Shown here piece by piece: positions 5,181 through 20,461 of a DNA stretch of 64,000 bases; the stretch's first letter is position 1; the number at the start of each line of letters is the position of its first letter. A program made the position numbers and the translations under genes. Below the pieces are notes generated by a model, which saw only the letters and a list, made by a program, of their open reading frames with translations, was not told the origin of the DNA and made no database searches. Source of the stretch: Amycolatopsis acidiphila (GTDB lineage Bacteria > Actinomycetota > Actinomycetes > Mycobacteriales > Pseudonocardiaceae); assembly GCF_021391495.1 (NCBI RefSeq), contig NZ_CP090063.1, forward strand, positions 4,588,001 through 4,652,000. The letters are read 5' to 3'.

Positions 5181-6296
5181 TCAGCCCTCGTGCAGGATGA
5201 TGCCCCGGATGTTGGTGCCGGCGTGCATGTCGGCGTAGGCCTGGTTGACCTCGTCGAGCCGGTAGGTCCTGGTGATCAGCTCGTCGAGCTTGAGCCGCCC
5301 CGCCTTGTACAGCGCCGCGAGCCGGGTGATCTCGAACGACGGGGTGCCCATACCGAAGATGACGCCCTGGATGCGCTTCTGCATCATCGAGAGCAGCCAC
5401 AGGTTGATCGGCAGGCCCTCGGCCTTGATGTCGCCGATGCCGGTGACCGCGACCGTGCCGAACTTGCCGACGGCGTTGACCGCCTGCGCCACGTGCTCGC
5501 CGGTGGTCACGCCGACGGTGACGATCACCGAGTTCGCACCCTGCCCGTTGGTGACCGAGCGGGCGAAGTCGGCGGCCTGGTCGATGTCGGCGAAGGTGTG
5601 CGTGGCGCCGAAGGTGCTCGCCTGCTCGCGTTTGAACGCGGCCGGGTCCACCGCGATGACGTGCGCCGCGCCGCGAACGGCGGCCGCCTGGACGGCGTTC
5701 ATCCCCACGCCGCCGGTGCCCATCACGATCACCGTGTCGCCCGCCTTGACCTCGGCGGCGTACTCGGCCGAGCCCCAGCCGGTCGGCACCCCGCAGGAGA
5801 GCAGAGCGGCGACGGGGAACGGGAGGTCTTCGTCGACCTTCGTGACGGAGTACTCCGAGACGACGGCGTGCTGGGCGAAGGTGCCCACCATGGTCATCTG
5901 CCCGACGTCCGCGCCGTCGAGGTGGGCGCGGTAGGTGCCGTCGGCCTGGGAGCCGGCGAGGGCGTAGATGCCCAGGTCGCACAGGTTCCCGCGGCCGGAC
6001 GAGCACGGCTGGCAGCGCCCGCAGGAGGGGACGAACTGGGCGACCACGTGGTCGCCGACCGCGAGCGAGCGCACCCCGGGGCCCACGGACTCGACGACGC
6101 CCGCGCCCTCGTGGCCGCCGATCAGCGGCAGCCGCCCGACGGGCATGTCGCCGGTCGCGGCGTGGTCGTCGGAGTGGCACAGGCCGGCGGCCACGAACCG
6201 GACCAGCACCTCGTTCGCCCGGGGTTCGTCCAGCTCGACGTCGACGAGCTGCCACTTGCCAGGCTGCTCGAGCAGCGCCGCCGCACGGGTTCGCAT
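5181..6296 (-). CDS. NDMA-dependent-type zinc alcohol dehydrogenase
   Basis: Medium-chain zinc alcohol dehydrogenase (371 aa) of the actinobacterial NDMA-dependent type, oxidising primary alcohols with tightly bound nicotinamide cofactor. Visible are the catalytic zinc region [13 protein letters not shown] and [13 protein letters not shown], the structural zinc cysteines in [20 protein letters not shown], and the Rossmann motif GTGGVGMNA near residue 190. Full length for the family. The start has a good ribosome binding site (AGGAGG upstream of ATG). The 114-bp upstream region carries two TnnAACnnGTTnnA-like palindromes, which suggests control by a KstR-type TetR regulator. The substrate is unknown; the upstream SnoaL-like gene and the palindromes hint at steroid or lipid side-chain catabolism (inference). 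Confidence 0.9.
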
Positions 6297-6313
6297 CGTT
6301 GCCCACCTCCTGT

Positions 6314-6327
6314 TAGAACAAGTTCTA
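6314..6327. promoter_or_regulatory. KstR-type operator palindrome
   Basis: TAGAACAAGTTCTA has perfect arms TAGAAC/GTTCTA and fits the published mycobacterial KstR consensus TnnAACnnGTTnnA at every fixed position. It lies 18 bp upstream of the alcohol dehydrogenase start, where a repressor would block its promoter. Confidence 0.6.
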
Positions 6328-6390
6328 TCAGGAGTAGAGCACAGCGGAACCGCTCCGACAAGGCTCTTCCAGCGCAGGTTTCAAAGGAGG

Positions 6391-6404
6391 GGGAACACGT
6401 TCTA
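6391..6404. promoter_or_regulatory. Second KstR-like half-degenerate palindrome
   Basis: GGGAACACGTTCTA matches the TnnAACnnGTTnnA pattern except for the first T. It lies 63 bp further upstream of the alcohol dehydrogenase than the first site and just past the stop codon of the SnoaL-like gene. Confidence 0.45.
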
Positions 6405-6410
6405 TGCGCA

Positions 6411-6833
6411 TCAGCGGCCGGGTGCCGGGACCAGCCCGTCGGCGACGAGCCCGGCCAGCACCGCCTCGCTGAGCGCCTGCACCGCCGAGAGCGGGCGGAC
6501 CATGACGGTGAACTCGGCGATGCGCCCGTCGTCGTCGAACTGGAGCAGGTCGATGCCGTGGATCTGCTTGCCGTTGACCGTGGCCCGGAAGACCAGCACT
6601 GCCGAGGGGGCGTCGTGCCCGCCGGTTTCGGCGGTGCCGTCGAGCGCGCCGACGTACCGGAAGTCCTCGAACGTCCGCAGCAGGACCCCGAACAGGCCCA
6701 GCACCATCGGCTTGCCCTCGAAGGGGGTGAACTTGACCGGGCTGTAGAAGCGGACGTCCTCGGTGAACAGGTCCTCGAGGGCGCTGCCGTCGCGAGCGTC
6801 GACGGCGGCGCGGAAGCGTGCGGTGGTGTCCAT
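6411..6833 (-). CDS. SnoaL-like / NTF2-fold protein
   Basis: A 140-aa protein with the cone-shaped alpha+beta fold of SnoaL and ketosteroid-isomerase-like proteins. It starts [23 protein letters not shown], the usual first helix, followed by [19 protein letters not shown] and a C-terminal sheet with [24 protein letters not shown]. The latter is the typical DGRI motif for SnoaL-like proteins binding small ligands. It sits upstream of the alcohol dehydrogenase on the same strand, separated by the two palindromes. It may be an isomerase or simply a ligand-binding protein; catalytic residues cannot be assigned from sequence alone. Confidence 0.8.
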
Positions 6834-6947
6834 CGCCCTCCTCGTCGGGTTGCGGCCGAGACTACTCACGCGGTGTCGTTTCGTCCCCCGTCCTGTGGTC
6901 GTCGGGCGGGTAAACTGGGCACGGTCCCGGAAGAAGGAGTGACGACT

Positions 6948-7460
6948 ATGACAGCGCCCACGGAGAAGGCCGTCCTCGCCGGCGGATGCTTCTGGGGGAT
7001 GCAGGACCTGATCCGCAAGTACGACGGCGTCGTCGCCACCCGCGTCGGCTACACCGGCGGGGACGTGCCCAACGCGACCTACCGCAACCACGGCACGCAC
7101 GCCGAGGCCATCGAGATCGGGTACGACCCGTCGAAGATCAGCTACCGGCAGTTGCTGGAGTTCTTCTTCCAGATCCACGACCCGACGACCAAGAATCGTC
7201 AGGGCAACGATGTGGGACTGAGCTACCGGTCGGCGATCTTCTACACCAGCGACGAGCAGAAGCGCGTCGCCGAGGACACGATCGCGGACGTCGAGGCCTC
7301 CGGGCTCTGGCCGGGCAAGGTCGTGACGGAGGTCGTGCCGGCGGGGCCGTTCTGGGAGGCCGAGCCGGAGCACCAGGACTACCTGGAGCGCTACCCCAAC
7401 GGGTACACCTGCCACTTCATCCGGCCGGGCTGGAAGCTCCCGGCGCGCTCCGCCGGCTGA
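6948..7460 (+). CDS. msrA: Peptide-methionine (S)-S-oxide reductase MsrA
   Basis: Reduces methionine-S-sulfoxide in proteins using thioredoxin-type reductants; a cytoplasmic repair enzyme for oxidative damage. The protein is 170 aa, normal for a stand-alone MsrA. The catalytic motif GGCFWGMQ places the nucleophilic cysteine at residue 14. Further family blocks are [24 protein letters not shown] and [16 protein letters not shown], the latter covering the substrate-binding region. Start ATG follows AAGGAG. A promoter-like TAAACT lies about 35 bp upstream. It is transcribed away from the SnoaL-like gene, so it probably has its own promoter. Confidence 0.96.
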
Positions 7461-17780: not shown

Positions 17781-17848
17781 CGTCGAATTCGCCGTCCTTC
17801 GTGCCCGCGAGGTCCGCGGTGGTGCGCTGGTTCCCGGAGTGACTGAAG

Positions 17849-17923
17849 TGCACGTGCATCTTGCAGCCAGCAAGCTACCACCGGCGACTGCACGGGTAAA
17901 TGCACGTGCTGGGTGCACGTGCA
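17849..17923. promoter_or_regulatory. Cluster of TGCACGTGCA palindromes
   Basis: Perfect 10-bp palindromes TGCACGTGCA at 17849-17858 and 17914-17923, with a near-copy TGCACGTGCT at 17901-17910 and a half-site TGCACGGGTA at 17889-17898. Both perfect copies are followed by TCT. They sit in the divergent region between the 105-aa protein and the reverse transcriptase, so they are probably operators for a repressor or activator. Confidence 0.6.
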
Positions 17924-17994
17924 TCTCGGGTAGAAAACTCCGGTTCCGTTTTCCTCGAAGGAGCGGTTTCCACCCTGCCGAGATGCCGAAAGTG

Positions 17995-18214
17995 GTAACG
18001 GAACGTGATACAACGGGCGAAAGTCGCCCGTTACAGGAGCTAAGGGTGAGCTTTCTGGTCCGATCGGGTGGTTGCCGGGACCGCCCTGCCGGCTTCACCC
18101 GAACCGCCGCGGGATGCTCGGAAGTTCCGTAAGGTGGCGTCGGCGACGCGGAGGTGAGCAGGTGGATCACCACCCCCTCCGGGGCAACCCCGGGGAGCTT
18201 CAGGACACGCAGGT
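17995..18214 (+). ncRNA. Hairpin-rich leader before the reverse transcriptase; possible structured RNA
   Basis: Five inverted repeats lie within about 200 bp directly upstream of the reverse transcriptase: AACGGGCGA/TCGCCCGTT at 18012-18032 with a 3-nt loop; a two-part stem TCGGGTG/CACCCGA with inner GCCGG/CCGGC at 18064-18102; GCGTC/GACGC at 18138-18150; GGTG/CACC at 18161-18171; and CCGGGG/CCCCGG at 18179-18193. No convincing reading frame occupies the stretch. Retron reverse transcriptases are normally preceded by a structured msr-msd RNA, so this is the natural place for one. No a1/a2 repeat pair or priming guanosine could be identified with confidence. Confidence 0.28.
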
Positions 18215-19336
18215 ATGGCGCCCCACGCGAACGCGGCACGCTTCGCGTACAGAACCGCGCGGATGAACGGAGAAAAGGTCACCTCCGTGTCGCCCCTCGG
18301 GCCGAGGCCGGTCTGGCGCTCGCCCGTCCCGCGCTGGACCACGTTCGACGACTGTGCCGCCGCGCTCGACCTCACCCCGGGCGAGCTCGCCTGGTTCGCC
18401 GACGCCCGGTCCTGGAACCGCCGCGCGGGCACCGCGCTGCGGCACTACCGCTACCGCTGGCTGGCGACCGCGGGTGCCGGGATCCGCCTGCTGGAACAGC
18501 CCAAGCCGCGGCTCGCCGAACTGCAGCGGCGGGTGTGCCGGCACGTCGTCGGCGCGCTGCCGGTCCACGAAGCCGCGCACGGGTTCCGCCGGGGCCGCTC
18601 GGCCATCACGTGCGCGGCGCCGCACGCGGGCCGCGCACTCGTGGTCCGGATGGATCTCGAAGGATTCTTTCCCGCGGTGTCCGCGCGGCGGGTCCGGTCC
18701 CTGCTCGAACTCGCCGGATATCCCGCCGCGGTGGCGGCCGCGCTCGCCGGCATCCTCACCACCGCGGCGCCGGTGGACGTGCTGGCCGCCGCCCCGGACG
18801 GACGGCGCGACCCGGCCCGCACGCGGCTGCTGAACAACCTCGCCTCGACCCATCTGCCGCAGGGCTCGCCGTCGGCACCGGCCGTGGCGAACGCCGTCAC
18901 CCATCATCTCGACCGCCGGCTGGCAGGCCTCGCCCGGACGCTCGGCGTGCGCTACACCCGCTACGCCGACGACCTCGCGTTCTCCGGCGACGCGACGTTG
19001 CCGTTGCACCGGTTGCTTCCCGGGGTGCGGCTGATCGTGCGGGACGAGGGCTTCCGGCTGCGCGAATCGAAGACGTCCGTGACCGGCACGCACCAGCGGC
19101 AGCGGATCGCGGGGCTCGTGGTCAACAGCTCCCCCGCCGCCGCCCGGCCCGACTACGACGCGCTCAAGGCCCTGCTGCACAACCGCGTCCGCACCGGGCC
19201 GCAGCCGCAGAACCGCCTGTGCCACCCGGACTTCCGCGCGTACCTGCTGGGCCGCATCGGCTGGATCGCGGCCTCCCACCCGCGCCGCGGCGAGAAGCTG
19301 CGGGCATTGTTCGACCGGATCAGCTGGCAAGGCTGA
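18215..19336 (+). CDS. Retron-like reverse transcriptase (RNA-directed DNA polymerase)
   Basis: A 373-aa stand-alone reverse transcriptase. Visible motifs: RHYRYRWLATAGAGIRLLEQ (RT1), AAHGFRRGRSAITCA (RT2), VVRMDLEGFFPAVS with the first catalytic Asp at 147 (RT3/A), LPQGSPSAPA at 214-223 (RT4/B), YADDLAFSG with catalytic Asps 252-253 (RT5/C), ESKTSVTG at 284-291 (RT6) and IAGLVVN at 298-304 (RT7). There is no group II intron maturase or HNH domain and no integrase, so it is not a standard intron or retroelement; length and RT7 are like retron enzymes. ATG 18215 is the first start after an in-frame stop at 18155; ATG 18263 or GTG 18287 are alternatives. The neighbouring genes are a 105-aa unknown and a convergent secreted protein; no obvious effector. 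Confidence 0.9.
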   Translation: MAPHANAARFAYRTARMNGEKVTSVSPLGPRPVWRSPVPRWTTFDDCAAALDLTPGELAWFADARSWNRRAGTALRHYRYRWLATAGAGIRLLEQPKPRLAELQRRVCRHVVGALPVHEAAHGFRRGRSAITCAAPHAGRALVVRMDLEGFFPAVSARRVRSLLELAGYPAAVAAALAGILTTAAPVDVLAAAPDGRRDPARTRLLNNLASTHLPQGSPSAPAVANAVTHHLDRRLAGLARTLGVRYTRYADDLAFSGDATLPLHRLLPGVRLIVRDEGFRLRESKTSVTGTHQRQRIAGLVVNSSPAAARPDYDALKALLHNRVRTGPQPQNRLCHPDFRAYLLGRIGWIAASHPRRGEKLRALFDRISWQG

Positions 19337-19363: not shown

Positions 19364-20461
19364 CTACGACCGGATGCGCACGACGCTGCCGAGACCTGCG
19401 GGGCAGGCGCCGCAGTTCGACACGTACGCGTCACCGCCACGGAAGGTCAGGCCGCCCGGCAGGATCAGGTTCTGCGACACGATCTGCCGCGAACCGTGCT
19501 CGCCCACCCGGATGAGGGCACCGGACGGGTCCTGGTCCGCCGTCAGCAGACCGTTCTGCGCGATCTCGAGGACATACAGCTTCCCGTCGTGGAAACCGAT
19601 GTCGATGATGTTCGTGAATCCCTGTGCGTACACCTGGGGCGCGTGTCCCGGCACCACGCGGTACACCCGCGCCGCGCCCTTCGGGAACGGGAAGCCCGTC
19701 AGCTCGCCGACGTAGAACGCGCCGTCGGGGCCACGCACGACCGAGGTCGGAACCGCCTGCATCGGGACTTTCATGCCCGGCGCCGTGCCGGGCATCGGCG
19801 GGGCGTCGACCATGCGCAGCGGGAAGACCGCCAGCGTGGAGATCTTTCCCTCGTCGGAAACCCAGAGCAGTGAGTTTCCGCCCGCATCCGCGACCGCCTG
19901 GCCGCCCGGCAGCGCGAGCACCGAGTTCGGGTTGCTGTTGATCTCGATCTTGTCCGGGTCGGCCTTCGCCTCGTAGCCGGCGACGTCGGTGGCCGGTCTG
20001 CCGTCACGCAGCAACCAGCCCATCTTCTGCCCGGTCGCGGGCAGGCCGGGGCGGATGGCGCCGGGGTCACCGCCGAGGCCGAGCGTGACGTACATGTTTC
20101 CCTTGCCCTGGAAGGAAATGTCCGAGGGCCCGATCGCCTGCGCGCCACCCGGGGCGGCCAGCGACGGCAACCCGGTCAGCACGCGGGTCTGGTGCCCGCG
20201 GTCGATCTTCGTCACCGATCCGCTGGTACCGAAGCAAACCGTGTCGCCTTCGGGGCCTCGGATGCAGGGTGCGGTGCCGCCGCTGCCCGACTCGGCCACG
20301 TAAAGCGCGCCGTCAGGCGAGAAAGCGAGCCCTCTGGGCTCGTTCAGTCCACTGGCGACCGTCGTCTGCTGTGCGCCACCGGCCGCCGCGGTCGCCGGCA
20401 CCAGGGCCACCGCGAGCGCGGCGGCGACTGTCAGCAAGATCCGGGTTGTTCTCATGGGCAC
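19364..20461 (-). CDS. Secreted NHL/ScyD-ScyE-type beta-propeller protein
   Basis: A 365-aa exported protein. A Sec signal peptide spans about residues 1-28 (RTTRILLTVAAALAVALVPA). The mature part has beta-propeller repeats of the ScyD/ScyE type: GLNEPRGLAFSPDGALYVAE, GPSDISFQGKGNMYVTLGLG, ALPGGQAVADAGGNSLLWVS, PTSVVRGPDGAFYVGELTGF and IIDIGFHDGKLYVLEIAQNG. A C-terminal CGACPAG pair of cysteines may form a disulfide. Function in actinobacteria is unknown; the name comes from cyanobacterial scytonemin genes. An alternative start is ATG 20455. It is convergent with the reverse transcriptase and divergent from the ABC exporter. Confidence 0.85.
   Translation of the reverse strand: MPMRTTRILLTVAAALAVALVPATAAAGGAQQTTVASGLNEPRGLAFSPDGALYVAESGSGGTAPCIRGPEGDTVCFGTSGSVTKIDRGHQTRVLTGLPSLAAPGGAQAIGPSDISFQGKGNMYVTLGLGGDPGAIRPGLPATGQKMGWLLRDGRPATDVAGYEAKADPDKIEINSNPNSVLALPGGQAVADAGGNSLLWVSDEGKISTLAVFPLRMVDAPPMPGTAPGMKVPMQAVPTSVVRGPDGAFYVGELTGFPFPKGAARVYRVVPGHAPQVYAQGFTNIIDIGFHDGKLYVLEIAQNGLLTADQDPSGALIRVGEHGSRQIVSQNLILPGGLTFRGGDAYVSNCGACPAGLGSVVRIRS

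Follow-up and report, generated by a model that had tools for sequence, protein, structure and literature searches.

The window, a stretch of 64,000 nt from Amycolatopsis acidiphila (NZ_CP090063.1, 4,588,001-4,652,000) on which the positions below are counted, belongs to an 8.18-Mb genome in one contig. It carries a gene for a reverse transcriptase (RT), whose closest named relatives are from Amycolatopsis, adjoining a structured RNA (Table 1). The open frame ends at 19336, and the YADD, LPQGSPSAPA and IAGLVVN motifs listed in the initial annotation were all found in its translation. RVT_1 was the sole Pfam domain detected at E <=0.001, hence the RT lacks a maturase, HNH or integrase domain, as had also been stated.

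Table 1. Features of the retron locus, in window positions (A1 and A2 are the RNA alignments described in the text)
Feature	Position	Strand	Basis
-10-like hexamer, TAAGGT	18130..18135	+	leader alignment; TAGGGT in most close relatives
msr-msd RNA of retron	18142..18294	+	leader alignment, fold, covariance models, covariation
a1 arm, pairs with a2	18142..18157	+	16 nt, 94% complementary; covariation
Candidate branching guanosine	18158	+	third base of GAGC (18156-18159), just after a1; predicted from sequence
msr hairpin 1	18161..18174	+	fold; 5 of 5 pairs changed on both sides (A2)
msr hairpin 2, CTCCGGGG-CAA-CCCCGGGG	18177..18195	+	fold; 8 pairs, 99.3% of cells paired (A1)
msd stem-loop	18225..18248	+	fold; 10 pairs, 86.1% of cells paired (A1), weakest helix
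a2 arm	18279..18294	+	inverted repeat, covariation; overlaps probable RT start
Retron RT	18287..19336	+	predicted 349 aa from GTG; alternative starts ATG 18263 and ATG 18215
YADD active-site codons	18962..18973	+	sequence/translation

When the leaders of 18 close relatives were aligned, the shared sequence was found to have a sharp 5' boundary, formed by a TAGGGT-like hexamer and a GCGACGCGGAGGTGAGC block, and the complement of this block falls within the first codons of the 373-aa ORF originally reported. The region 18142-18294 folds with a z-score of -3.7 (0 of 200 shuffles as low), and in the folds of 27 single members, judged by eye, a long terminal stem closes each RNA, including that of Corallococcus (L051). 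In the RNA of Amycolatopsis sp. GM8 (L003:5941-6067), the segment separating hairpin 2 from the msd stem is shorter by ~26 nt, suggesting that the missing stretch is dispensable. A consensus promoter scan detected none at the retron leader, and the promoter at 18130-18135 is thus a putative one. No retron family of Rfam was matched by the stretches of the window and relatives that were searched.

The msr-msd had initially been placed further upstream, in a leader at 17900-18140, but the RNA found here lies partly inside the ORF as then drawn. The upstream region also folds well (z-score -3.1, 1 of 100 shuffles as low) but aligns with L003 alone among 18 loci, and it belongs to a flank found also in the same-genus genomes G003 and G009. 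The leader length of 220 bp was likewise mistaken, 17781-18214 measuring 434 bp. Five inverted repeats had been noted, and five pairs were indeed recovered in 17781-18310, but four lie in 17781-17924, a flank shared with genomes of the genus that lack an intact retron, and the sole pair belonging to the retron is a1/a2. At 17846-17926, in the interval separating the retron from the divergent 105-aa gene, a palindromic repeat of the TGCACGTGC type occurs three times, and L003 has it too; it may serve the flanking genes as an operator or terminator.

Compensated changes were counted in two alignments. In A1 (18 rows, MAFFT, made independently of structure, with pairs taken from the window fold), both sides have changed at 7 of 38 pairs, a count that 0 of 500 shuffles equalled; shuffles gave 2.0 and slid controls 0-1. 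The further pair types in A1 were not above shuffles (92 of 500 as high). At the level of sequence, GAGC follows a1 in 18 of 18 rows. In A2 (42 rows fitted to the covariance model, one being a reverse-strand echo of L004), 32 of 43 pairs have changed on both sides, against 17.7 in shuffles and 10-19 in slid controls, and all 15 a1/a2 pairs have changed on both sides yet still pair. A helix drawn by RNAalifold at columns 96-99/242-245 of A2 is 76.6% paired and probably wrong. The leaders thus share a conserved structure, a point on which the initial annotation had let its proposal depend.

A covariance model built from the window and 17 loci (R1) was run on the window and 80 related loci, and matched 51 loci at E <=0.006, each time on the strand of the RT and ahead of it, and 17 of these loci were model builders; L055 was matched likewise at E 0.023. 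The E-values, which are rough, reached 1.2e-22 (L027), 2.8e-19 (L019) and 6.1e-15 (L021) in loci that had no part in the model. A second model (R2), built from 42 R1 matches, was run on the remaining 28 loci and on L152, L153 and L160; the last three gave no match, whereas 25 of the 28, none a builder, were added, 12 at E <=0.01 and 13 at 0.013-0.49, the weakest of these being weak alone though each lies upstream of an RT. Together, the models placed the RNA upstream of the RT on its strand in 77 of 80 loci; of the others, L036 and L064 end at a contig edge by the RT and L067 had a minus-strand match only. The loci reached include records titled Myxococcota, Planctomycetota, Acidobacteria and Pseudomonadota, so the recognisable RNA now extends from Amycolatopsis to four further record groups, in which the stretches searched had no Rfam retron match. 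In the Singulisphaera retron (L068), the RNA lies 1.27 kb ahead of the RT, and between them is a 398-aa ORF (L068:4477-5673) that by eye resembles a TnpB-type transposon protein.

The RT was not upheld at 373 aa, as the conserved RNA extends to 18294, into the N-terminus of that ORF, making a start near 18287 more likely. Among 43 longer relatives whose frame could be read past the RNA by script, the first possible in-frame start is at most 52 nt past a2 in 38. In the window, GTG 18287 is the sole possible start near a2, and the predicted length of 349 aa is therefore preferred; the database copy of the protein is of 357 aa, corresponding to ATG 18263. Longer members of the family carry an extra N-terminal region, which opens with five helices in the model of the M. 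xanthus relative P0130, whereas the window RT and the aligned Amycolatopsis members (349-357 aa) lack most of it.

Among the PADLOC models, the window RT was matched best by RT_other (526 bits, 2.1e-158) and then by RT_outgroup, which is labelled 'retron' (493 bits, 1.6e-148), both over nearly the full length. The M. xanthus and Corallococcus relatives likewise scored highest with these two models. Assignment to retron type XIII was rejected, RT_XIII scoring 284 bits (5.9e-85) against the 526 of RT_other. A sequence search of solved structures gave the retron Ec86 RT as the top match (1.2e-26). An AlphaFold2 model of the window RT (pLDDT 92.9) was compared with the PDB using Foldseek, and the 18 best matches were retron RTs, again led by Ec86 (5.5e-18; 23% identity in the fold alignment), while RTs of DGRs first turned up at rank 26. 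In a tree of 39 rows, which omits L112 and L116 (wrongly cut) and the long-branched viral L222 and retains five long end branches, a branch supported at 100/99 separates the 24 family rows from the rest, which are a type-XIII-like RT, 12 RTs from viral contigs and two further RTs encoded by the window's genome. The RT belongs to the retron RT clade. At the aligned positions, CAAPH takes the place of NAXXH and IAG that of VTG; the available part of PMC6868368 describes two validated retrons without the N of NAXXH and two that vary at VTG.

The site was examined in other genomes of the genus. In Amycolatopsis sp. GM8 (genome G012; L003 coordinates are those of the match there), the retron occupies the same site as in the window, with matching flanks, and no more than 6 bases separate the RT stop codon from the flank preceding an ABC transporter gene. 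In G009 (L153), both L003 flanks adjoin with 8 bases between them and without a ~1.2-kb insert, which sets the L003 unit at ~5908-7108. The site in G003 (L152) has retained a relic, consisting of an a1 block and short fragments of the RT. Both the 105-aa gene and the ABC transporter gene are present in L003, G003 and G009. As G009 has no insert, G003 has a relic and both keep the 105-aa gene, the retron is a bare unit holding no effector gene. The G009 site may equally be the state before insertion or a clean loss.

The RT was found in 2 of 19 genomes of the genus, with one full copy each in the window's own genome (G000) and G012. Of 390 Pseudonocardiaceae genomes, 90 had a match at E <=1e-3, fragments included. 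Run over the 19 genus genomes with 150 candidates scored in each, R1 identified the RNA in G000 and G012 and gave a weak match in G008 (G008:C1:4733981-4734117, L163; E 0.065), a genome without an RT match, where it may be due to chance or be an RNA relic. No match was found in 50,697 phage records, and 5 of 72,556 plasmid records were matched at E <=1e-20, each with <47% identity. The top identity to relatives on viral contigs was 36% among the best 80 of 349. The RT is under purifying selection, with dN/dS of 0.14 to GM8 and ~0.22 to three others (Nei-Gojobori script).

In 40 of 78 retron-bearing Pseudonocardiaceae genomes, covering 10 genus codes, the retron lies 0.4-10 kb downstream of a dnaE2-like gene on the same strand; the 78 were picked for strong matches and the linkage was counted by reading tables, in which draft contigs may hide links. 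The gene encodes a DNA polymerase III alpha of the 1111-aa type, which we take to be DnaE2, as there is a second copy with 33-34% identity at another locus. Downstream of the retron, 15 of 80 loci carry one family of convergent genes, and a TNT domain was found in 5 of 5 members tested; in L006, L016, L019, L021 and L023 the convergent gene is large and ends in this domain. A conserved gene of ~172 aa, for which no Pfam match was found, lies between the TNT gene and the retron at several loci, and the two are perhaps a toxin with its immunity gene. In G000, G012 and G009, dnaE2, the 172-aa gene and the TNT gene are kept in order, and no RT match was found in the 14 kb read of that block; the window retron is thus ~3.9 Mb from the usual berth of the family. 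Relocation and loss followed by re-acquisition both fit. The TNT gene is a doubtful effector, being convergent to the RT and staying in these three genomes without an adjoining RT, and was treated as synteny. As for dnaE2 as a candidate functional partner, none of the papers searched combines 'retron' and 'dnaE2'.

The long stay downstream of dnaE2, over 10 genus codes and on the same strand, suggests a retron domesticated for host DNA metabolism, either repair or mutagenesis, and both the purifying selection and the lack of phage matches are consistent with this. However, inherited gene order also explains the linkage, since conservation extends to the TNT-type gene that flanks the retron opposite dnaE2, and no link was seen in 38 of the 78 genomes, window included (some on draft contigs). 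With matches of any kind in no more than 90 of 390 family genomes, a role of this type is considered unlikely.

A near-neutral or selfish retroelement that rarely moves and is decaying has about the same standing and is likewise improbable. The patchy presence, the G003 relic, the G009 site without an insert, the fragments that several Pseudonocardiaceae genomes contain and the new site in the window's genus are as expected for such an element, but the low dN/dS (0.14-0.22), the compensated RNA stems and the single full copy in G000 and in G012 argue against it.

It is most unlikely that this is a three-part defence retron whose effector is encoded by a neighbour, namely the divergent 105-aa gene, the gene at 19364-20461 or the ABC transporter gene (20648), as adjacency, in the window only, would suggest. 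The 105-aa protein, named as the only candidate partner in the initial annotation, did not hold up, as a tblastn search of 80 other retron loci detected it at L003, which shares the site of the window, and not at the other 79, and its gene, like the ABC transporter gene, persists in G009, which has no retron there, and next to the relic of G003. The gene at 19364-20461, directly 3' of the RT, encodes an NHL/ScyD-like, secreted-looking protein; it is absent from the L003 site, is found elsewhere in G012 and has matches in 10 of 19 genus genomes at E <1e-140, and therefore arrived independently. A survey of 4 kb around 81 RTs, restricted to ORFs >=90 aa so that smaller or very divergent effectors would escape, found that neighbour families common to most loci are lineage synteny blocks (among the 40 largest families listed), and neither it nor the empty and relic sites revealed a linked effector gene.

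A group II-derived or DRT-type RT that is not a retron, to which the weak scores shared across the RT domain might point, is hardly conceivable given 43.9 bits with the NCBIfam group II model (cut-off 300), 23.7 with Drt2 (cut-off 390), no group II placement by HMM, tree or fold, and the msr-msd itself.

By structural definition, the window element is a retron, and the HMMs, the tree, the predicted fold and the covarying msr-msd agree with the early proposal of an actinobacterial retron with no described effector. Counting against this reading are the scores of all three NCBIfam retron models, which fall below their own cut-offs for the window RT, the variant motifs and the lack of a promoter or Rfam match. 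A lone retron that makes msDNA is nevertheless the probable explanation, though msDNA production is proposed by analogy. As in known retrons, the RT would bind the folded RNA held shut by a1/a2, prime from the 2'-OH of G18158 and copy the msd into a short ssDNA, very roughly 65-80 nt, that would stay joined to the msr. The RT-msDNA complex might then guard or control a host protein whose gene lies at another place, quite possibly as part of phage defence, rather than belong to a three-part cassette with an effector of its own. Such a partner in trans is put forward tentatively, somewhat short of an even chance, but ranks ahead of the host DNA metabolism and near-neutral readings.

More speculatively, and on balance doubtfully, the family could be a cross-phylum clade of effector-free, long chromosome-resident retrons that perform a host function through a partner encoded in trans and move as bare promoter-RNA-RT units without a mobility gene, for which the ancestral berth in Pseudonocardiaceae would be between dnaE2 and the TNT gene, 3.9 Mb from the window retron. 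The RT class is already represented in PADLOC, and the covarying RNA, the evidence for a bare unit and the history of the site are added here. The 1.2-kb unit has a sharply defined RNA and relatives in cultured actinomycetes, and a single genus offers the site in occupied, relic and empty form, which provides clean alleles for assays of msDNA synthesis, phage resistance and effects on the host.

The RNA layout of Ec86 (Eco1), the closest solved relative, is of the same kind as that in the window. However, Ec86 has an NAD-hydrolysing partner, according to a title cited in PMC12548924, whereas none is linked to the window retron. Going by the published description in the part of PMC6868368 available, Mx65 shares with the window retron the GAGC branch motif and a replaced asparagine in NAXXH, and the myxobacterial retrons Mx162, Mx65 and Sa163 have an extended N-terminus like the longer members of this family. 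A 442-aa RT of M. xanthus is 48% identical to the window RT. A second Corallococcus RT, of 481 aa, is 36% identical and scores 510 bits with type XIII against 288, the reverse of the window RT. From its size, we take this 481-aa RT to be Mx162-like.

Two family members are filed under unexpected names, L056 as Vibrio cholerae and L021 as Rhodococcus rhodnii. As the layout of L021 is close to that of L020 from Kibdelosporangium, mislabelled or contaminated records are likely. The window's own genome also contains six further, weaker RT matches (for example G000:C1:7818684-7821807), and the two that were read have YADD in frames of 566-569 aa and are probably group II intron RTs.
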